Assembly (NCBI GenBank): GCA_027484125.1
Contig: JAIXUI010000069.1
Coordinates: forward strand, 1-33,603
Direction of reading: 5' to 3'
Source: Bacteroidota bacterium
GTDB taxonomy: Bacteria > Bacteroidota > Bacteroidia > UBA7662 > JAIXUI01
DNA length: 33,603 nt
The notes beneath the pieces are model-generated. The model saw nothing but the letters and a program-made list of their open reading frames with translations. It made no database searches and had not been told where the DNA came from. A program made the position numbers and the translations under genes. Each line of letters starts with the position of its first letter. Position 1 is the stretch's first letter. Below, one piece after another: positions 188 through 20,841 of this stretch.

Positions 188-2452
188 TTATTTCACAGAA
201 GCACGAATGATGTTTAATGCTCCACCTGCTTTGAACCACTCTATCTGCTGTGCATTATAAGAGTGCAACACTTCGATGGTATCTGAGCTTCCGTCGGAAT
301 GGCGAAGTACCAATTGAAGCGACTTACCGGGAGCAAATGAAGTTAAACCAAGAATATCGATTTGATCGTCTTCCTGAATTTTGTTGTAGTCCTCTTTATT
401 CGCAAAAGTAAGGGCTAACATGCCTTGCTTTTTGAGGTTAGTTTCGTGGATACGAGCAAATGATTTAACCAATACTGCGCGAACTCCTAAATGACGCGGC
501 TCCATAGCAGCATGTTCACGGCTTGAGCCTTCACCGTAGTTTTCATCACCCACTACAATTGATCCAATACCTGCTGCTTTGTAGGCACGTTGTACTTTAG
601 GCACTTCATCATAGCTACCATCCAGCTGATTTTTAACACTGTTGGTCTTCTCATTGAAGAAGTTAGTAGCGCCAATCAGGAGGTTGTTGGAGATGTTATC
701 GAGATGACCGCGGAATTTGAGCCAAGGGCCAGCCATGGAGATGTGGTCAGTTGTACACTTCCCTTTGGCTTTAATCAGAAGTCTAAGATGATGCAAATCG
801 GTGCCTTCCCAAGCTGCGAAAGGATCGAGCAATTGGAGGCGGTTGGAAGTAGGACTTACCTTTACTTCAACTGAAGAACCATCAGCTGCAGGCGCCTGAT
901 AGCCGGCATCTTCTACTGCAAATCCTCGTGATGGTAATTCATCGCCGGTTGGCGCATCTAACCTCACAGCAACACCTTCTTCATTGATTAGCGTATCAGT
1001 AAGTGGGTTGAAGCCTAAATCACCTGCAATAGCGAGCGCTGTAACCAATTCAGGAGATGCAACGAAAGCATAAGTATTGGGATTTCCATCCTGACGAGCT
1101 TGAAAGTTTCGGTTGAAAGAGTGAACGATGGTGTTCTTCTCTTTTTTCTCAGCTCCTACCCTGTTCCACATTCCGATACATGGACCGCAGGCATTGGCAA
1201 ACACTTTCGCTCCAATTTGGTCAAAAATGCTGATGAAACCATCGCGTTCGATGGTGTAACGCACTTGTTCTGAACCAGGAGTGATGGTGAATTCCGCTTT
1301 GGTTTTCAACTTCTTATCCGCTACTTGCTTTGCTAAAGAAGCTGCACGTGCGATATCTTCATAGGAAGAATTGGTACAGGAGCCAATAAGACCAACCTCT
1401 ACTTTTGTAGGCCAGCCATTGGCTTCGGCTACTTGTTTAAGTTGGCTGATAGGGGTAGCAAGGTCCGGAGTAAACGGTCCGTTAACATGAGGCTCTAGCG
1501 TGTCGAGGTTGATTTCGATTACTTGGTCGAAGTATTGTTCCGGATTGGCATAAACTTCAGGGTCAGCGGTAAGGTGTTCACGGATGCCATCGGCTAGGTC
1601 GGCAACTTCTGCACGACCGGTTGCACGGAGGTAGCGAGCCATGCTATCGTCGTACCCGAAAGTGGAAGTTGTAGCACCAATTTCGGCGCCCATGTTACAA
1701 ATAGTACCTTTTCCGGTACAACTCATGGAGGTTGCACCTTCACCGAAGTACTCTACTACAGCTCCGGTACCACCTTTAACGGTAAGGATTCCGGCAACTT
1801 TCAGGATAACATCTTTTGCTGAGGTCCAGCCATTGAGGCGACCGGTAAGTTTAACCCCAATAAGCTTAGGAAATTTAAGTTCCCAAGGGAGGCCTGCCAT
1901 CACATCGCAAGCATCTGCACCACCTACCCCAATGGCTATCATGCCTAATCCACCGGCATTGACCGTATGAGAGTCAGTTCCAATCATCATTCCACCTGGG
2001 AATGCATAATTTTCTAGTACAACTTGGTGAATAATCCCGGCACCAGGTTTCCAGAAACCGATGCCATATTTGTTAGATACTGATGATAAAAAGTTGAAAA
2101 CCTCTTCACTTTCAGTAGTAGCAATTTTAAGATCCTCATTAGCGCCGGTTTTTGCAGTAATGAGGTGGTCGCAATGAACAGTAGAAGGCACTGCTACTTT
2201 TGGTCTGCCGGCTTGCATGAATTGCAAAAGAGCCATTTGAGCTGTTGCATCCTGCATGGCTACGCGGTCTGGACCAAAATCAACGTAGGACTCTCCTCTT
2301 ACATAGGCCTTGGAGGGAGCTGAATCCCAAAGATGGCTGTAAAGAATTTTCTCTGTAAGTGTAAGAGGACGGCCTACCAGCTCACGAGCAGCGGAAACCC
2401 GCTCTCCCATTCGGCTGTACACCGCCTTGATCATATCAAGGTCAAATATCAT
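188..2452 (-). CDS. acn: Aconitate hydratase (aconitase)
   Basis: This TCA-cycle enzyme interconverts citrate and isocitrate in the cytoplasm using a [4Fe-4S] cluster. The three cluster cysteines are visible: one in IGSCTNSS (about residue 359) and two in [10 protein letters not shown] (about 422 and 425). Other family blocks include [20 protein letters not shown] and, in the C-terminal swivel domain, the [10 protein letters not shown] motif. The length of 754 aa suits the mitochondrial-type aconitase common in Bacteroidota. The frame is open back to a TTG at 2461, but the ATG at 2452 gives the usual MxFDLDMIK start and lies downstream of a TAAATTTG -7 box. The gene is monocistronic, with its own promoter and terminator. 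The kinase operon upstream ends only about 80 bp away. Confidence 0.97.
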
Positions 2453-2480
2453 GGCATTCAAAGGGTTAAGTTTTCGGTCG

Positions 2481-2533: not shown

Positions 2534-3871
2534 TTATTGTTCTGCTTTTTTGGAAATCACTTTGTTCGAAGGAAAGTGAAGTTCCACCAGGGTTCCACCT
2601 TCTTGCGGATTGTGCAAAATCACCCCTCCTCCCATTTGCTCCATGGCCTTTTTTACCACTGCCAAACCTATTCCTGTAGTTTCGATTTCGTCCTTGTTGT
2701 TCAGGGTTTGAAAAATTTCGAATACCTTACCATGAAAGCGACCGTCAATTCCTGGTCCATTATCGCGAATTAAAACGGCGACCCCATCCGGACGTGGTTC
2801 TGAATACACCCAAATTTTAGGAGTTTCTGAATGATTGAACTGGATTGCATTGTGTATCAAATGCTCGAAGATTCTACGAATTACGGCCGGATTAGAGCTT
2901 AAAGTGGGTAAGTACTGTTCGGTTTTTAACTCTATTGGGAGACTCTTGGTAAGAGATTGAAATATTTTATCTATAACAGGCCCTATGGCTACAGCCTCAT
3001 CCGGCTCATCAGTTCTGTTGATACGGCTATACTCCAAAATCCCATTGATTAAGCGCTCCATGCGCCGTACTCTGTTTTTCAAAATTTCGAAATAACGCTT
3101 TGCCTCTTCTGATAATTTAGAATCTGAATCCTCGTCAATCCATTCAGCTAGGTTATTGATTGCTCTTAATGGAGATTTTAAATCATGAGAAGTGACATAA
3201 GCGAACCGATCTAAATCGCGGTTGGTTTGAATGAGTGCTTTATTTTTTAACAGCAATTCTTCTTTTTGTTTCTCGAGCAACCTTTGAGAAAGTTGATATT
3301 TCAAAGTGAAAGGACGATAAATAAACAACCAAAGTATCAGCACGAAAGCGAGGCTGGAAACAAATAAAACGAGATGATTTCTACTTTGTCGAACTTCTAA
3401 CGCTTTATATTTCTGGAGCTCAACCAGCAGCAATTGGTCCAGCTGTTCAAGCGAATTTTTCTGAAGAAAAAGCAGTTTTTTCACATCTTGCTCCTGTAGC
3501 TGATTGCTATGTAGTATCTGAGAGGCTCGGTTATAAACAGACTCAACAACTCGTAAAGTAGAAGCGAAAAACGGATTTCCATTGTCTTTGGATTCAGAAT
3601 GAAATCTCCTCAAAGAGGATTGGGAATTCCGCACAAACGACATCAAATCAGCTTTTTGCTCAGGGCTCACTACCCCGTAAGGAATGGTTAGTAAAGTATT
3701 GACTATTCGATAAATGGCCGTTCGTTGCTTGCTTACATTCACCATAAAATCAGAGGATTTTTCCCACTCTGTTCGTTCTGACTTCATGATCCAAAAAGCA
3801 CTGCAAGCAAACATTAAAAATGCAATTGCTGTAAACAGAAAGATTAATTGTATTCGCTTTGCGTCACGCAT
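2534..3871 (-). CDS. Membrane sensor histidine kinase, 445 aa
   Basis: A two-component sensor kinase without a receiver domain. TM helices at about 9-29 and 166-186 enclose a roughly 135-residue extracytoplasmic region predicted to be helical. A short coiled coil (190-220) leads to HisKA, with the phospho-acceptor His229 in TSHDLKSPLRAI. The ATPase domain has an N-box (EHLIHNAIQFN, about 336-346), G1 DNGPGI (370-375) and G2 TTGIGLA (398-404). The motif SKQRTAIYRI (47-56), just after TM1, looks like a degenerate form of the PilJ/NarX-type GRQRMLSQ box of the neighbouring kinase. The start overlaps that gene's stop by 8 bp, indicating translational coupling. It is the last gene of a three-kinase operon, and no partner response regulator is visible. 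Ligand unknown. Confidence 0.93.
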   Translation of the reverse strand: MRDAKRIQLIFLFTAIAFLMFACSAFWIMKSERTEWEKSSDFMVNVSKQRTAIYRIVNTLLTIPYGVVSPEQKADLMSFVRNSQSSLRRFHSESKDNGNPFFASTLRVVESVYNRASQILHSNQLQEQDVKKLLFLQKNSLEQLDQLLLVELQKYKALEVRQSRNHLVLFVSSLAFVLILWLFIYRPFTLKYQLSQRLLEKQKEELLLKNKALIQTNRDLDRFAYVTSHDLKSPLRAINNLAEWIDEDSDSKLSEEAKRYFEILKNRVRRMERLINGILEYSRINRTDEPDEAVAIGPVIDKIFQSLTKSLPIELKTEQYLPTLSSNPAVIRRIFEHLIHNAIQFNHSETPKIWVYSEPRPDGVAVLIRDNGPGIDGRFHGKVFEIFQTLNNKDEIETTGIGLAVVKKAMEQMGGGVILHNPQEGGTLVELHFPSNKVISKKAEQ

Positions 3872-5486
3872 GACCTTCTATGTTGAGTGGCCAAGTAAAT
3901 TCAAAGGTACTGCCATTACCTAAAGCCGAGTGCACCTGTATAACACCGCCCACCTCCTGAACTATTTTCTTCACAATGGCTAATCCAACCCCTGTACTCT
4001 CTGCCACATCCCTGGCTTTGAGCGTTTGGAAAATCTCAAAAATCTTTTCGAAATGCTCAGACGAAATCCCTGGACCATTGTCGCGCACTTGAATGCGAGC
4101 CATCCCTTCTACAGGTTGAGCAGAAAGCCAAATTTCCGGATTTTGATTGTCATTGTGTTTGATGGCATTGCTGATAAGATTGTTGAGAACCTGACTAAAC
4201 TTGATAGGATCTCCATAAAGCGAAATAGATTCACCTTCAAGATGTATGTTTACCTCATTGCGGTTAATTAGTTGCTCAATTGCGTCTTTAGCTGCTTTTC
4301 CAAAGATAAAGTCATGCGCAATAGCTTGAGGGTTTTGGCGGGTTGCTCTTGAATAAGCTAGTACGCCATTGATTAAAGCTTCTAAACGCGCCACTCTATT
4401 TCGCAATAACTCAAAATTCTTACTGATACTCTCCGTAGTTTTTCCTTCCAAATCTTCTTCAATCCAAAGACTGAGATTGGAAATAGCCCTCAAAGGGGCT
4501 TTCAAATCATGTGAAATGATGTAAGCAAATCGTTCTAACTCCAAATTAGTATCCTGAAGTTTCTGAGAATAGTGAGTAAGTGTTTCATTGAGTTCCAATA
4601 ACTCATTATTCTGTTTTTGCATTTGCCTTTCTTTCTCTAACAGAGAATCATTGGCTGACTCCAAAGCTTTATTTGAATCTTTCAATTTATCTGTATAGCC
4701 TTGAAGGGTTCTATTTAAAATACTCAATTCTTGATTCTTGGTTTCAAGCAATTGCTCGTTTTGAATCAAGGTTTCATTGACGGTTTGAAGCGCCAAATTT
4801 TTCTCTTTATTTCTTCGGTTGGCCTCCTCAAGGAAAGAAAGCGATTTGTCCAGCTTGTCCAACATTGGCCTGAAAAGCAAGAAACCTTCCGCAAAAAGAA
4901 GTACTAAAACCACTATTAGAATAAGGATAGAAACCATTCTGGTTTTATCTATCTTCAAACTTGCTCTGTTTTGAAAACTTGACATAGCTTCTTCCATTAA
5001 TGGAAGGAACACGATTGAGCTATTGACAAAGATTAGTTTAAGTTCTTTCAGTTGCCTTTTACCTTCGGGAGAAATGCAATTAAAACTAGGCTCTTTGATT
5101 GTTGATGCTACTTGCATCATTCTACTAACCATTGGAGAAGCCTGATTAAGCGCTCGTCGAGATTGAGGAGTTCCAACAGTTCTAATGTTTTTATAGAGCC
5201 TTTCCCGAATTAATGCTTGGTGCACTTGAAAAAAAGTATCGGCTTGATGAATAAAAATTGACTTGATCTTTTGAGCCGAATCAGGTTCGGTTATTTCAGC
5301 CAAAATCAGAAGGTCCTTCGCAAGCTTTTGTGATAACATTCGCTGACGACCTACTAAATTAAGCAAGGAAGCATCCGTGACTTGAGTAGATAGATTGTAA
5401 TAAATAACCAACTGCCCTATCGACATTATCAACGCGATAGAAAAGATAGCCATTAAGTAATATCGGCGGATGATGTTAGAGTTCAT
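3864..5486 (-). CDS. Membrane histidine kinase with PilJ/NarX-like sensor, 540 aa
   Basis: A sensor kinase with TM1 at about 10-30, a helical periplasmic region, TM2 at about 184-206, a long coiled coil (about 207-318, rich in LxxxNxxL spacing), HisKA with His326 in ISHDLKAPLRAI, and an ATPase domain (N-box about 434-443, DNGPGI 469-474, STGVGLA 497-503). Right after TM1, NLVGRQRMLSQKLAK (43-57) matches the start of the PilJ/type IV pili MCP-like N-terminal domain, related to the P-box of nitrate sensors NarX/NarQ. That suggests a small-molecule sensor, but the ligand is not shown. The start overlaps the upstream gene by 4 bp (ATGA) and the stop overlaps the next kinase by 8 bp. It resembles the 445-aa kinase in layout and probably arose by duplication. 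Confidence 0.94.
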   Translation of the reverse strand: MNSNIIRRYYLMAIFSIALIMSIGQLVIYYNLSTQVTDASLLNLVGRQRMLSQKLAKDLLILAEITEPDSAQKIKSIFIHQADTFFQVHQALIRERLYKNIRTVGTPQSRRALNQASPMVSRMMQVASTIKEPSFNCISPEGKRQLKELKLIFVNSSIVFLPLMEEAMSSFQNRASLKIDKTRMVSILILIVVLVLLFAEGFLLFRPMLDKLDKSLSFLEEANRRNKEKNLALQTVNETLIQNEQLLETKNQELSILNRTLQGYTDKLKDSNKALESANDSLLEKERQMQKQNNELLELNETLTHYSQKLQDTNLELERFAYIISHDLKAPLRAISNLSLWIEEDLEGKTTESISKNFELLRNRVARLEALINGVLAYSRATRQNPQAIAHDFIFGKAAKDAIEQLINRNEVNIHLEGESISLYGDPIKFSQVLNNLISNAIKHNDNQNPEIWLSAQPVEGMARIQVRDNGPGISSEHFEKIFEIFQTLKARDVAESTGVGLAIVKKIVQEVGGVIQVHSALGNGSTFEFTWPLNIEGHA

Positions 5487-8400
5487 GCGTTTTTAGGCCA
5501 AGTGAAATGGAAGGTTGAACCTACGCCAAGTGCTGATTCAACCCAGCATTTCCCCCCTTTATCTTCAATGATCTTTTTCACAATAGCTAAACCAACGCCT
5601 GTACTTTCAACTTTATCGCGTGCATTAAGCGTTTGAAATATGACAAAGATTTTATCATGATATTCTTTATCAATGCCCGGGCCGTTGTCAGAAACGCTAA
5701 AATGCCAATACCTTCCATCGTCTTTCCAATTAATTTTCAGTTCGGGTTCCGGATTGGAATTGTACTTGATTGCATTGCTAATAAAGTTGGAGAATACTTG
5801 TTCAAGTGCCACTTTTTCTGCCAGAATTACAGGCAATCCACTTTGAATTTGAACTTTAAAGTTATCGGGTGTCCCAAGTAGGCTAATTAAATCCGGAATG
5901 AAGTCAGCCAAATCAATCTTGACAGGATTTGTTTTCATTCTTCCAGCTCTTGAATAATTCAAAATGCCATTAATCAAACTTTCCATGCGTTGAACACGGC
6001 CTCTAAGCATTTTAAATTGATCTTTAGTGTCACCGGTCAGAACATCCTGAATATCTTCTTCTATCCATAATGATAAGTTGTTGATAGCCCGCAATGGCGC
6101 CTTTAAATCATGAGATACTACGTATGCAAATTGATCGAGTTCCTTATTAATTTTCTCGAGATCTTGGGTGTAGGCCATCAATTTGGATTCAGATTCTTTC
6201 GATTCTGTTATGTCCCAATTCACCCCCAACATCCTGACAGCCGTCCCATTGGCATCTCTGTAAACATTGGCCTTTCCTGCAATGTGTCTGATTTCATGAC
6301 CACCTTTTACAATTCTGAATTCAGATGAAAAATCTTTATTTCCCTTTAATGCCTCTTGCACATCAGCGAATGCTCGTTCTTTATCATCCGGGTGCAAAGT
6401 AGCTGCCCAAGCTTCAAAATTATTAGAAAACTGATTTTTCTCAACACCAAATAGTTCATAAAGGGTGTCGTCCCAAACCAGACTATTCAACTTTACATTC
6501 CAGTCCCAAACGCCAAAACCAGCTGCCTGAGTGGCCAGTTGCATGCGGTCATTAAGAATTCTCAGCTTTTCTTCATTAACTTTTCTTTCAGTAATATCTA
6601 CTCCATAACCAATCACATAAGCGATTTCTCCGGAGCCGTCTTCAACAGGAAAGAGCCGCCTCAGTCTCCAGATTGGCTCCGATTCCGGAATTTCTAATTG
6701 TTCCTCATACTCTATATGACGATTCGTGCTGATGACCTGATTGAATTCTTTCCTGCGTTGTTCTGCTACATGGAGCGGACGGTTATATTTTTTACAGTAT
6801 TCAAAATCATCATGCCCGATGGCCCACTCTCTTCTTTCCTTGTTCTTGATAGCCGTTGAATTTATGAATTTATACTTATGCTCGGCATCAAAAACTACCA
6901 CGTCTAACGGAATTGAGTGAAGAATACGTTCATAGAATTCCTTGGTTTGAAGTATTTCCTTTTGGGCACGGTCTCGCTCAGTTACATCCCTGGCATTGAC
7001 TACAATCGCATTAACACTTTCATCTTCCACTAAATTATTCCCCACTGCTTCCAAATAAAGATACTCTCCATCCGCTTTTCTGTACCTAAAGTTGATTGGA
7101 TCAGAAACTCCGCCTGTTTGAATGCCGTAGTTAAACTCAAAAATGGACTTTTCTACATCTTCTGGATGCACCAATTCAAATACATTTCTACCCAAAAGAC
7201 TGTCCTCTTCATATCCAAACATTCGGTAAAATGAAGGGCTCATGTATTGGATAGTTCCATTCGGAGCAATAACTGTAGTGATGTCAGAAGAGTTTTGCAC
7301 CAAACTTCGGAACCTGCGCTCGCTCTGAGCAAGTTTGGCTTCCGAAGCTTCTCTTACTAAATAAGAACCCAATGAATTGGCCAAATTACTCAAGATGTTT
7401 TCTTCGGCGGAAGTCCAAACTTTCTCCCGGGTACAATCGTCGAATCCAACAAATCCCCAGAGTACATCGCTCACATAAATGGGTAAAACCAGTAACGACT
7501 TGATGTCTTGCTCTTCTAAGAGTGGCTTTTCTGACTCTGGAAAGTCTTTCACTAAACCCTTGATGCAATTTCCTTCCAAAAAAGCATCCATCCAGCGCTT
7601 GTAGCCAATATCAGACATGGGAATATCCTGTAAATCCGGATTATCCAACTGAACTGAAACTCCGCCTTTTACCCATTCAAAACGCTGACTACTCAGTAAA
7701 ATGCCTTCCTCTTCTCTGTTCTCGAAAATATACACACGGTCAGCTTCTACAATTTTTCCGGCATATTCAAGCGCTTGCTCAACGCTTTGACTTAAATTTT
7801 GGCTATTTAAGAGGGTAAAAGAAATATTATTGACGGTATTCAAGAGTTTTTCATTGTAGAGAAGATGCTCTTCAAATCGTTTACGTTCTGTAATATCTTG
7901 AGCTGTTCCTCTTAACGCTACCACGTCACCTGCTTCATTAAAAACAGGTTTTCCAATTCCAAGTATATATTTTTCTTCTCCCCTTGGAGTGATTATTCGA
8001 TGCTCTATCGATTGTTCCTTTTTCTCAGTGAAAACTTTCTCTATGGTTTGTCTGAAAGGACTGATTTGCTCAGGATGGATAATTTGGAAATAATCTTGAA
8101 GGCTTACTTGCTTCTTTTCAATTCCAAAAATGTTGTAAAGTTCATCCGACCAAAGTACTTGTTGATTGTGTAAGTAATATTCCCAACTTCCAATATGTGC
8201 GATTGCCTGAGCTTCATTGAGCAACATTTGGCGTTTTAGTATTTCTTCTTCGGTTTTCTTTCGCTCTGAAATATCCCGAATAATCGCCATGATGTAGCCT
8301 TTTCCTTCTAAACTCAGATAACGAACATTGGCTTCAACAGGAAATAATTCACCGTTTTTTCTCTTGTTCATCCCTTCAATAAGGGTGCTTCCTATTCGTT

Positions 8401-10006
8401 TAAGTTCCAACACATGGCTTTCCCAGCTTCCCGGCTCTTTAAATAAATCTTCAACATCCTGAACATGCATTTTTAATAACTCATGGCGGTCGTAGCCTAA
8501 TCCCTCAGCTGCTTTTGAGTTTACAAAAATGAAATACCCCTTTTCATCGGAGATTTGAATGGCGTCACTGGAATGATCAATTAACGACTGTGTAAGCAGC
8601 AACTGCTCTCGTGCTTCTTTCTTTTCTGTAGTATCAGTAAGGATTAAGAGATGTCCTGTAATGTGTTGAAACTCATCTATTAAATTAGACATTGTAAGCG
8701 TGAGCCAACGACTTCTATTGAACGCATCTTTATATTGTATTTCTACATCTTCAAAACGGTTCTGCTGAAAAAGCCCCTCAAGCTGTTTTACAAGTTCGCG
8801 ATTGTCTGAAAGTTTAATTTTTTGTTTTGGGTGCTTGAATTTCATGACAGAAAACAGATCAACTAAGGTTTTTTGCCCAGTGAATTCTGTTGCCTTTAAC
8901 CCGAACATTTTTTCAGCTCCTTTATTAAAAGTTCTGATTCGTCCATCTAAGTCGATCGCAATTTTGGCGTTATGAATTCCATCAAGAATCGCATTCTGAA
9001 ACCGCAGCGTATCGTTGAGGCGCATTTCAGCAAGGGTCTTTTCAGTAACATCATTTAAAGTTCCTGAAAGTCCACTAGCTTCTCCATTAGAACCGATGGT
9101 TAATCGGACAAAAATATCGACATAGCGAAAATCGCCCGACTTGGTTTTGAACCGTACTACCTCTCTTACATATTCTGCTTTACCCTCCATGAGCTTCATG
9201 AAAATGGATTTGCATTGAGGAATATCCTCCTCAAGTAAAAAAGAAGATACTTGATCGTGTAGGGACTCCTCAACTGAGAATCCTGTCATCTCTTCCCAGG
9301 CAGGATTTAGGAAAATCCACTGGCTGTCAAGATTGGTTTGAAAGACCACCTCCTTGAGGGAGTTGATTACAAATCGAAACCTTGCTTCACTTTCTTCTAT
9401 TTTCTCTTGTTGTAGTTTGGATTGTGTGATATCAGATTCGATTGCAATAAATCCCTGAAAATCATCATTCTCTCCAATGATTGGCGCTATCGACAAGTTC
9501 AACCAATAACCTTGTCCAGATTTATTGTAATTATAAATTTCTCCTTCAAACGGTCTTTTTTCTCGAATTGCTTCACCAATAGCTTTTACTGTGAAAGGAT
9601 CTGTTTTGGGCCCTTGTAGTAAACGTCCAGGTTTTTTGCCCATCAACTCCTCAACCTCATAACCCGTAATCCTTACAAATGCGTCATTGGCCCAAACTGC
9701 TTCTCCCAAATCGTTGGCAATAATGACCGCATTTTGTGTTTTCTGTGCTACTAAGGCCAATCGTTGAACTTGGCTGGTGCGCTCCTCTACCAACTTTTCT
9801 AAACGCTCATTGTAGGCTATAAGCTCTTTGTTCTTTTTAAACAGCTCCCTTGAAGATAAGTCGAGCGCTCGCTCGATGTGAGCATATTGGTCTTCATAGT
9901 TCTGATAGGCATCATCTATGGCGTTTAAGAACGCTTTGAAATTGGGATCTTCCGGATCTATGTCGGGTAAAAATCGACTGACCTGTCGTTTCAAAAGCCT
10001 ATTCAT
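5483..10006 (-). CDS. Soluble multi-PAS/GAF histidine kinase, 1507 aa
   Basis: A very large sensor kinase with no TM segment, probably cytoplasmic. Order by residue: a helical N-terminus with LSSRELFKKNKEL coiled coil (1-80); PAS1 (85-190, LOV-like GRLLQGPKTDP but without the photoactive Cys); PAS2 (205-325); PAS3 (335-455); PAS4 (475-590); PAS5 (597-715, PAS_3 type); a GAF domain (725-890); PAS6 (895-1015); PAS7 (1020-1145); PAS8 (1150-1270, PAS_3 type); then HisKA with His1299 in SHDLKAPLRAI; and HATPase with DNGPGI and STGVGLA. Most PAS units end in a D(I/V)TER-type linker. There is no receiver domain. It is first in the operon and overlaps the next kinase by 4 bp. Bound cofactors and signals cannot be read from the sequence. 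Confidence 0.95.
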   Translation of the reverse strand: MNRLLKRQVSRFLPDIDPEDPNFKAFLNAIDDAYQNYEDQYAHIERALDLSSRELFKKNKELIAYNERLEKLVEERTSQVQRLALVAQKTQNAVIIANDLGEAVWANDAFVRITGYEVEELMGKKPGRLLQGPKTDPFTVKAIGEAIREKRPFEGEIYNYNKSGQGYWLNLSIAPIIGENDDFQGFIAIESDITQSKLQQEKIEESEARFRFVINSLKEVVFQTNLDSQWIFLNPAWEEMTGFSVEESLHDQVSSFLLEEDIPQCKSIFMKLMEGKAEYVREVVRFKTKSGDFRYVDIFVRLTIGSNGEASGLSGTLNDVTEKTLAEMRLNDTLRFQNAILDGIHNAKIAIDLDGRIRTFNKGAEKMFGLKATEFTGQKTLVDLFSVMKFKHPKQKIKLSDNRELVKQLEGLFQQNRFEDVEIQYKDAFNRSRWLTLTMSNLIDEFQHITGHLLILTDTTEKKEAREQLLLTQSLIDHSSDAIQISDEKGYFIFVNSKAAEGLGYDRHELLKMHVQDVEDLFKEPGSWESHVLELKRIGSTLIEGMNKRKNGELFPVEANVRYLSLEGKGYIMAIIRDISERKKTEEEILKRQMLLNEAQAIAHIGSWEYYLHNQQVLWSDELYNIFGIEKKQVSLQDYFQIIHPEQISPFRQTIEKVFTEKKEQSIEHRIITPRGEEKYILGIGKPVFNEAGDVVALRGTAQDITERKRFEEHLLYNEKLLNTVNNISFTLLNSQNLSQSVEQALEYAGKIVEADRVYIFENREEEGILLSSQRFEWVKGGVSVQLDNPDLQDIPMSDIGYKRWMDAFLEGNCIKGLVKDFPESEKPLLEEQDIKSLLVLPIYVSDVLWGFVGFDDCTREKVWTSAEENILSNLANSLGSYLVREASEAKLAQSERRFRSLVQNSSDITTVIAPNGTIQYMSPSFYRMFGYEEDSLLGRNVFELVHPEDVEKSIFEFNYGIQTGGVSDPINFRYRKADGEYLYLEAVGNNLVEDESVNAIVVNARDVTERDRAQKEILQTKEFYERILHSIPLDVVVFDAEHKYKFINSTAIKNKERREWAIGHDDFEYCKKYNRPLHVAEQRRKEFNQVISTNRHIEYEEQLEIPESEPIWRLRRLFPVEDGSGEIAYVIGYGVDITERKVNEEKLRILNDRMQLATQAAGFGVWDWNVKLNSLVWDDTLYELFGVEKNQFSNNFEAWAATLHPDDKERAFADVQEALKGNKDFSSEFRIVKGGHEIRHIAGKANVYRDANGTAVRMLGVNWDITESKESESKLMAYTQDLEKINKELDQFAYVVSHDLKAPLRAINNLSLWIEEDIQDVLTGDTKDQFKMLRGRVQRMESLINGILNYSRAGRMKTNPVKIDLADFIPDLISLLGTPDNFKVQIQSGLPVILAEKVALEQVFSNFISNAIKYNSNPEPELKINWKDDGRYWHFSVSDNGPGIDKEYHDKIFVIFQTLNARDKVESTGVGLAIVKKIIEDKGGKCWVESALGVGSTFHFTWPKNA

Positions 10007-10123: not shown

Positions 10124-11518
10124 ATGCGCAAATTTTGGATGCCAACCCTCTTAATGGCCTTATTTTTAGGAAGTTGTCAAAGGGAAGGCACGGAAACCAT
10201 ACCTGTTCCAGTTGCAGAAAAAGGCAACTTTGACTTTAAAACGGAACGCAGTATCGCTGTTGACATTCAGTTTGAGACCCATGGTTTGAATCTTCAACCT
10301 ATGTTGGGTACTCCAGTAGATGTAGAAATTTTAGTAGATGGCCGCCGCCTCCAAGTGGGCCGTGCCTTCGTAAAGGCTCAAGGTGTTACTCTAGATGTAA
10401 GGGTTCCATCTTTTACCAAACATGCATGGTTGATTTCGCCTTTGACTAAAGCCGAATTGGCTTTTGAGTTAGACCATGCCAAGAAATCTATTTCATTCGA
10501 AATCTATCAATCCGCTATGGGCATCCATGCGCGTAAGCAAGTTTCCGAAGAAGGCATGTACCTGCACATGGCCGGAATGAGACCTGAAGGTGGCTCTAAT
10601 AGCCGCGACTTTGACCGTGATGGCGTAGATGATGATTTTGACGAATTCCCGCAAGACCCAGCCAGAGCTTTCACTATGATGGAACCCGCTTGGGGCTATA
10701 ATACTTATGCGTTTGAGGATTTATGGCCTAGTCAGGGGGACTACGATTTCAACGACTTAGTCCTCGACCATCGGATACGTTGGGTCTTTAATGGCAAACA
10801 AGAACGGGTGGAAGCAGCGGGTGAGTTGGTTGTAAGAGCTCAAGGAGCAGGGCTTCCAAATGGATTAGCGATGCAACTCCTAGAGTTCACCCCTGAAACC
10901 CAATCGTATCAATCTTTACCCGCAGGTTTGTTAGGAAATTTAGGAGGACATTTATCTCAAGACCCTTCCGGTGCTGCCAATACCGCCATCGTCTCCAATC
11001 ACCTTAGCGCTTCGCTAAAATCTTATTACACCAACCTCAACGATGTTGGACCTAATAGAATACCAGATACGCTGAGATACCAATTTAGCTTAACTCAGCC
11101 TTCGGCAGCATTCGTAAGAACAGACTTCTTCTTATTAAAAGGCGATGCCGCAACTGGACAGGCCGACCGAAGCATGGAAATTCATGTATGTGGCCGTCCG
11201 GCAACTTCAGCAGCCAACACCGAATACTTCGGAACGTATGCCGATAAAACGGGCAATGGTTCTTGGTATAAAGACCATAACAGCATGCCCTGGGCCATGG
11301 AAATATTCGCAGCGCCCTTGCTATTGGGCCCAAATAATGCAGTGACCGGCCACAATGTCGGAACTTGGACACCCTTCGCTTATCCTAAATCAAAGGTACG
11401 TATTGATATCGCCTATCCTGGATTTGGCACTTGGGCCCGCAGCAATGGAAGAAGTGCCGATACTTGGATGACACAAAGCTTATCCGACAAAATCTGGATA
11501 CCAGATTGGCAGCGATGA
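10124..11518 (+). CDS. LruC domain (DUF4842) lipoprotein
   Basis: A predicted exported lipoprotein: a short signal peptide with lipobox LFLGSC puts the lipidated cysteine at residue 18. A calcium-binding-like acidic repeat, DRDGVDDDFDEFPQDP (164-179), is followed by the LruC/DUF4842 signature AFEDLWPSQGDYDFNDLV (196-213). The family is common in Bacteroidota and Leptospira and its function is unknown. The C-terminal half (about 230-464) is the rest of the LruC domain. A second in-frame ATG at codon 6 is possible, but codon 1 keeps the positive n-region. It is divergent from the kinase operon across a 117-bp gap and could be a target of those kinases, though nothing in the sequence proves it. 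It faces the glycosyltransferase operon tail to tail, 8 bp apart. Confidence 0.88.
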   Translation: MRKFWMPTLLMALFLGSCQREGTETIPVPVAEKGNFDFKTERSIAVDIQFETHGLNLQPMLGTPVDVEILVDGRRLQVGRAFVKAQGVTLDVRVPSFTKHAWLISPLTKAELAFELDHAKKSISFEIYQSAMGIHARKQVSEEGMYLHMAGMRPEGGSNSRDFDRDGVDDDFDEFPQDPARAFTMMEPAWGYNTYAFEDLWPSQGDYDFNDLVLDHRIRWVFNGKQERVEAAGELVVRAQGAGLPNGLAMQLLEFTPETQSYQSLPAGLLGNLGGHLSQDPSGAANTAIVSNHLSASLKSYYTNLNDVGPNRIPDTLRYQFSLTQPSAAFVRTDFFLLKGDAATGQADRSMEIHVCGRPATSAANTEYFGTYADKTGNGSWYKDHNSMPWAMEIFAAPLLLGPNNAVTGHNVGTWTPFAYPKSKVRIDIAYPGFGTWARSNGRSADTWMTQSLSDKIWIPDWQR

Positions 11519-20127: not shown

Positions 20128-20841
20128 ATGTACACCGGAATCCTACACACCCACAAACTGGTTGTAACCCTATTTTTGATTTACTACCTCGTCCGTACCA
20201 TTTTGTTGCTCAGCAATAAACATGAAGCTCTGGACAAGCTGACGAAAAAATTGGCTATTCCGGATAGGATAATCTCGGCCTTATTCCTGGCAACCGGCAT
20301 TTACTTGGCTGTTTTTTCAGGTACTTCAGCAGCAGGATCATGGTTGTGGGTTAAATTGATAGCCGTTTTCGCCTCGATTCCCTTGGCTGTTATTGGCTTC
20401 AAGAAGAAGAATAAAGCACTCGCTTTACTTTCATGGTTACTCATTGCCTACGCTTACGGCATTTCTGAAACCAAAAGTCCAACCATGAACAAGAAAGCCT
20501 ATTTCGAAAGCCTGGCTGGCGATGTTCAGGTGAATACCGCTGAAGCCAACATGGTTCCCGGACAAGAAAACTATGACATAGCAGCTCATGGCCAAGCGCT
20601 TTATGCGAAGAACTGCCAAGTTTGTCACGGCGAAGACGGAAAACTAGGTAAAAGCGGAGCGAAAGATTTAGCTGCCAGCCAAAAGACCAGAGACGAAAGC
20701 CGTACCCTGATTGAAAAAGGCAAAAACGCGATGCCAGGCTTCGCCGGATACCTCTCAGAAGATGAAATCATGGCCGTTAACGCCTACATTCATACCAAGT
20801 TTATCCAAGGAAGTGACCTTCAGGCTCCTGCTGCACATTAA
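20128..20841 (+). CDS. Membrane protein with C-terminal cytochrome c domain
   Basis: A 237-aa two-part protein. Residues 8-110 form four hydrophobic helices in a SirB-like membrane unit with His8 and His10 near the start. A linker (115-150) leads to a single class-I-like cytochrome c domain with the haem motif CQVCH (163-167) and a probable distal Met202 in KNAMPGF. The cytochrome part would face the periplasm, and the protein likely carries electrons at the inner membrane. Partners are not seen here. The next gene's most plausible start lies inside its 3' end (29-bp overlap). Confidence 0.87.
   Translation: MYTGILHTHKLVVTLFLIYYLVRTILLLSNKHEALDKLTKKLAIPDRIISALFLATGIYLAVFSGTSAAGSWLWVKLIAVFASIPLAVIGFKKKNKALALLSWLLIAYAYGISETKSPTMNKKAYFESLAGDVQVNTAEANMVPGQENYDIAAHGQALYAKNCQVCHGEDGKLGKSGAKDLAASQKTRDESRTLIEKGKNAMPGFAGYLSEDEIMAVNAYIHTKFIQGSDLQAPAAH

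Follow-up and report, generated by a model that had tools for sequence, protein, structure and literature searches.

Three overlapping histidine kinase genes of a Bacteroidota bacterium as the likely sensor arm of a dispersed multikinase network

Rcp1/CheY-like stand-alone receivers occur next to SHDL-type kinases. In several proteobacteria, NosP and other FIST proteins make a kinase responsive to NO (PMC12570481, PMC8846402). Nitrate kinases that lack a HAMP domain are known in Bacteroidetes (PMC8199190), and the nitrate-binding N-box of the McpN sensor follows the pattern [IVL]-[ND]-x-A-G-x-Q-R-M-L-[ST]-Q (PMC6381276). Our search of an open-access paper collection found no paper joining the FIST domain, a histidine kinase and Bacteroidetes. 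Here we analyzed a 33,603-nucleotide stretch of DNA from a Bacteroidota bacterium (hereafter the window), which carries three overlapping histidine kinase genes, K1, K2 and K3. We consider it likely that K1-K3 provide the sensors of a dispersed multikinase network that converges on a single receiver, REC, encoded on another contig.

Anatomy of the kinase trio

The original prediction described three kinase genes overlapping by 4 and 8 bp, encoding one cytoplasmic PAS/GAF kinase and two two-TM kinases that share a nearly identical phosphorylation site and have no receiver at the locus. The ORF coordinates on the minus strand (Table 1), the Pfam scan and the hydrophobic segments bore out each of these points.

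Table 1. Coordinates of the kinase trio, its motifs, its neighbor and its candidate partners; positions without a contig label are those of the window.
Feature	Position	Strand	Description
K1	5483..10006	-	Cytoplasmic histidine kinase, 1507 aa; PAS array and one GAF, HisKA, HATPase_c
K2	3864..5486	-	Two-TM histidine kinase, 540 aa; PilJ-type periplasmic sensor
K3	2534..3871	-	Two-TM histidine kinase, 445 aa; sensor without Pfam match
K1/K2 overlap, 4 bp	5483..5486	-	From sequence
K2/K3 overlap, 8 bp	3864..3871	-	From sequence
K1 phospho-acceptor motif SHDLKAPLRAI (H1299)	6083..6115	-	Motif
K2 phospho-acceptor motif SHDLKAPLRAI (H326)	4482..4514	-	Motif
K3 phospho-acceptor motif SHDLKSPLRAI (H229)	3158..3190	-	Motif
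K1 N-terminal module, ~85 aa	9752..10006	-	Other kinases with this module all directly follow a FIST gene
K2 nitrate N-box-like motif LNLVGRQRMLSQ, residues 42-53	5328..5363	-	9/10 specified McpN N-box positions
Aconitase (context)	188..2461	-	Directly downstream of the trio; ~78% identical to both the G002 and the G004 aconitase
REC	C140:16069-16530		Stand-alone Rcp1/CheY-like receiver; same genome, other contig
HYB	C140:14114-16054		REC-PAS-HisKA-HATPase-REC hybrid kinase, adjacent to REC
FIST gene	C89:1399-2586		Single in genome; Pfam FIST domain; away from any kinase seen on C89

All three proteins have HisKA and HATPase_c domains above the Pfam cut-offs, and the N, G1, F and G2 boxes were found in each, together with the phosphorylation-site motifs FAYVVSHDLKAPLRAI, FAYIISHDLKAPLRAI and FAYVTSHDLKSPLRAI in K1, K2 and K3, respectively. 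K1 contains up to eight PAS stretches when PAS_4 is counted and lacks a convincing membrane segment, the single marginal stretch lying within its GAF domain; K2 and K3 have two hydrophobic segments each. No receiver domain was detected in K1, K2, K3 or any other window ORF scanned against Pfam, and scans for promoters and terminators returned sites no more numerous than in shuffled sequence.

Upstream of K1 and divergent from it lies a gene for a 464-aa DUF4842 protein (window 10124-11518); 117 bp separate the starts of the two genes, so one control region may serve both. Elsewhere in the window, a 237-aa ORF (20128-20841) combines a SirB-type domain with a cytochrome c domain of the cbb3 subunit III type.

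Gene order across the class and the unlinked receiver

A search with REC against 295 genomes of the class, in which a close REC was defined by E ≤ 1e-45 and a kinase of the trio's clade by E ≤ 1e-60, revealed close REC relatives in 33 genomes from 11 families. Every one of these 33 genomes also encoded a clade kinase, eight genomes had a clade kinase and no close REC, and 254 had neither, an association for which the Fisher value serves as a guide only, the surveyed genomes being kin to one another. At 22 loci, a SHDLKxPLR kinase, REC and HYB followed one another on one strand (at L192, REC was placed from the REC search match, ORF picking having masked it), and a FIST gene directly preceded the kinase at 10 of them. 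Eight REC-HYB pairs, counting that of the window's genome, had no kinase in front. Clade kinases away from REC-HYB were also found in genomes G096 and G033, indicating that dispersal is recurrent.

Several relatives place more than one kinase before REC. Kinase pairs do so in G004, G157, G187, G104 and G065, the order in G004 being PAS/GAF kinase, PilJ kinase, REC and HYB, with the PilJ kinase directly before REC. G141 carries three tandem clade kinases with three different N-termini, the last of which overlaps REC by 4 bp, and in G208 three sister-type kinases (SHDLQEPLR) precede receivers. None of the other genomes sampled, the nearest of which belong to the same order, contained the exact K1-K2-K3 trio; what relatives have are the PAS/GAF and PilJ pair of G004 and the different three-kinase array of G141. 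Searching genome contigs with K2 yielded six loci, all remote and uninformative. The third kinase of that array (L213:8424-9620) has an N-terminus resembling a sensor globin, a putative assignment. At three other loci (L193:10463-11179, L195:1269-1991 and L197:1880-2581), a sensorless kinase of 233-240 aa separates a full sensor kinase from REC; these short kinases form one group (100/99) though they come from two families, and that of L193 has HisKA and HATPase domains above cut-off.

The DHp domains of the trio closely resemble one another. DHp identity within K1-K3 was 57-62%, compared with a median of 20.8% over kinase pairs of the same genome, which has 35 HisKA matches, and the other kinases compared showed at most 30% DHp identity to any of the three; the likeness is more than chance. 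We built a tree from 77 kinase cores picked by similarity to K1-K3, among them 29 receiver-linked kinases and 20 other kinases of the genome; in it, one clade (100/96) united the trio with all 29 receiver-linked kinases sampled and contained none of the 20. Because the tree kinases were picked in this way and the genomes share ancestry, the counts are not independent. A separate clade for the trio was neither established nor rejected (AU p 0.21), and the CA domain of K1 showed at most 67% identity to the receiver-linked kinases of family f5.

Within this clade, K1 was placed in the FIST/REC-linked part (98/89), and K2 and K3 have no resolved place, K3 forming a long branch. This pattern would fit a history in which K1 alone keeps the ancestral connection to REC and HYB, with K2 and K3 being duplicates that would pair with K1 in heterodimers or take phosphate off REC, much as RetS acts on GacS. 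The gene overlaps, which favor co-assembly, and DHp helices similar enough for mixed dimers point the same way. However, K2 and K3 have kept every kinase motif, and among relatives a PilJ kinase directly precedes REC in G004 and three kinases precede one REC in G141; we consider a K1-only connection unlikely.

The candidate receiver for all three kinases is REC on C140, which is 81% identical to the REC of G002, a genome of the same order, and is the only receiver of the genome near the module's REC, the next ones reaching at most 38%. Its neighbor HYB is 55% identical to the G002 HYB and 49% identical to the G004 HYB. In G002, where the order is one kinase, REC and HYB, and in G004, the cluster is adjoined by aconitase and an FtsX/MacB permease gene. 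In the window's genome, aconitase stays with the trio, and REC-HYB sits on C140 behind the same FtsX gene that adjoins the intact cluster in both relatives. The simplest reading of these gene orders is that one ancestral cluster was broken in two, leaving the kinases by aconitase and REC-HYB by FtsX, and the orphan status of the trio appears to reflect this operon break-up. An assembly artefact was judged unlikely as the cause of the split, since REC-HYB is flanked by FtsX and an ispE-like gene in the interior of a 91-kb contig, and the trio is likewise interior to its 33.6-kb contig. The G004 REC (L041:11238-11606) reads 122 aa, its stop coming some 20 residues sooner than in relatives, and the sequence beyond the stop still matches.

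Since REC and the trio are unlinked in this genome, their pairing rests on relatives and on sequence similarity. In an alternative reading, the trio acts on different or other unlinked regulators, its DHp resemblance reflecting descent only. The genome does contain further unpaired receivers, two of them stand-alone and without an adjacent kinase (on C47 and C109), and related kinases elsewhere are paired with more distant receivers. As partners of the trio, the C47 and C109 receivers rank low, at no more than 38% against 81% for the C140 REC, which alone is near the module's REC, and the C47 receiver is closely followed by a sugar-transferase-like gene; this alternative seems improbable to us. 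That the split from REC and HYB broke the pathway and left the kinases as drifting remnants, as the long branch and degenerate N-box of K3 might suggest, is very improbable given the open frames and intact motifs of all three kinases, the full-length REC, HYB and FIST, and the split arrangements in G033 and G096.

Convergence on REC is the reading we retain. Calling the kinases orphans was correct as to their position, yet the genome does hold a matching receiver on C140, in line with the class-wide kinase-REC-HYB order. The suggestion that their inputs converge on one unlinked regulator is well supported, by a clade (100/96) that includes 29 receiver-linked kinases and by a single occurrence of its receiver in the genome; hetero-oligomers, the other option named in the original prediction, may form as well.

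Candidate inputs of the three kinases

A link of K1 to FIST proteins is suggested by its N-terminal module: all 11 kinases matching the first 85 residues of K1 have a FIST gene directly upstream. Along most of its length, the FIST protein of C89 shares 42-48% identity with those encoded beside these K1-type kinases. Adjacency of FIST and kinase genes, a trait of NosP-NahK, is absent from this genome. The C89 protein scored 47.7 bits against the NosP model NF041558 (cut-off 450), and K2 and K3 scored 89.1 and 64.7 bits, respectively, against the NahK/ErcS model NF041832 (cut-off 400), which was not among the best 25 matches listed for K1. Because these NCBIfam cut-offs were not reached, we describe K1 and FIST as wired like NosP-NahK and not as a member of that family. 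Another ORF of the FIST contig (L210:5576-6844) contains near-identical repeats (TASSISATICAGAVYNFNGTPL...) and has a C-terminus resembling a sorting domain; the contig ends inside this ORF.

The sensor of K2 matched the PilJ domain PF13675 (E=1.4e-6, 28.8 bits, cut-off 26.6), and its N-box-like motif keeps the nitrate-binding Arg, the deviation being Ala to Val. K3 had no Pfam match to PilJ, and its N-box is degenerate, with QR alone kept in register. Searched against solved structures, a profile built from K2, K3 and the PilJ kinase of G004 matched McpN (6gcv, E=0.0035). In moderate-confidence structural models, whose alignments each contained the other kinase's sensor, the top fold matches of K2 were to NarQ (E 0.02-0.06), and the K3 sensor formed a NarQ-like helical bundle (TM 0.55-0.66) with an E-value that was not significant. 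The copper nitrite reductase NirK was not found in the genome, so nitrogen-oxide sensing is without metabolic support there, and naming nitrate or NO as the actual signal is a guess.

A dispersed network and its known counterparts

From these features we infer the following scheme for phosphotransfer, ligands and output. Because relatives place such kinases directly before REC and HYB, the trio probably feeds different signals to one REC: K1, K2 and K3 would each autophosphorylate in response to a different input and pass the phosphate to the same receiver. The input of K1 would probably come through the genome's single FIST protein, that of K2 through a PilJ/NarQ-type site in the periplasm, possibly one for nitrate, and that of K3 through a related, diverged helical sensor. 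The N-terminal receiver of HYB, which is akin to REC, possibly also takes phosphate from K1-K3, and HYB would relay it onward via its own kinase and its C-terminal receiver. As the module contains no DNA-binding or enzymatic output domain, output would be via protein contacts or a further relay.

We put forward only tentatively a more specific version, in which a class-wide FIST-kinase-receiver-hybrid module, to which tandem kinases were added and which here occupies three loci, would form a nitrogen-oxide integrating multikinase network that brings a FIST signal (possibly NO), nitrate and a third periplasmic signal to one receiver.

The analysis gives three orphan kinases a concrete partner candidate and shows how pairings lost through operon break-up can be recovered from the gene order of relatives. 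The occurrence of one, two or three kinases of the same DHp class before one receiver forms a natural series for studying how bacteria give a pathway new inputs while keeping its specificity.

Comparison with described systems shows resemblances and differences at each level. As with Rcp1/CheY-like receivers, a small receiver without an output domain stands beside a PAS kinase, but here a REC-PAS-HisKA-HATPase-REC hybrid is the recurrent third gene. As in NosP-NahK/NosK (PMC8846402, PMC12570481), the FIST gene of relatives directly precedes a PAS kinase that is predicted to act on a receiver, and K1 has the N-terminal module of the FIST-linked kinases. In contrast, the FIST gene, the kinases and the receiver are spread over three contigs here, the partner is a stand-alone receiver plus a hybrid kinase instead of an HD-GYP or GGDEF/EAL regulator, and the scores of the FIST protein and the kinases fall far short of the NosP and NahK cut-offs of NCBIfam. 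Resemblance to the PilJ/NarQ/McpN sensors (PMC6381276, PMC8199190) extends to the PilJ domain, G-x-x-R core, 9 of 10 N-box positions and lack of a HAMP match in K2 and to the NarQ-like models of K2 and K3, whereas the Ala to Val change and the long linker to a SHDLKxPLRAI kinase set K2 apart and the N-box is absent from K3. The trio shares the DHp class of the receiver-linked clade, in keeping with a multikinase network on one receiver. The arrangement resembles the GacS/RetS multikinase networks (PMC5992135, PMC8175716) in that several related kinases are predicted to meet at one regulator; it differs in the overlap of the kinase genes, in having a stand-alone receiver as that regulator and in that convergence is deduced from gene order.
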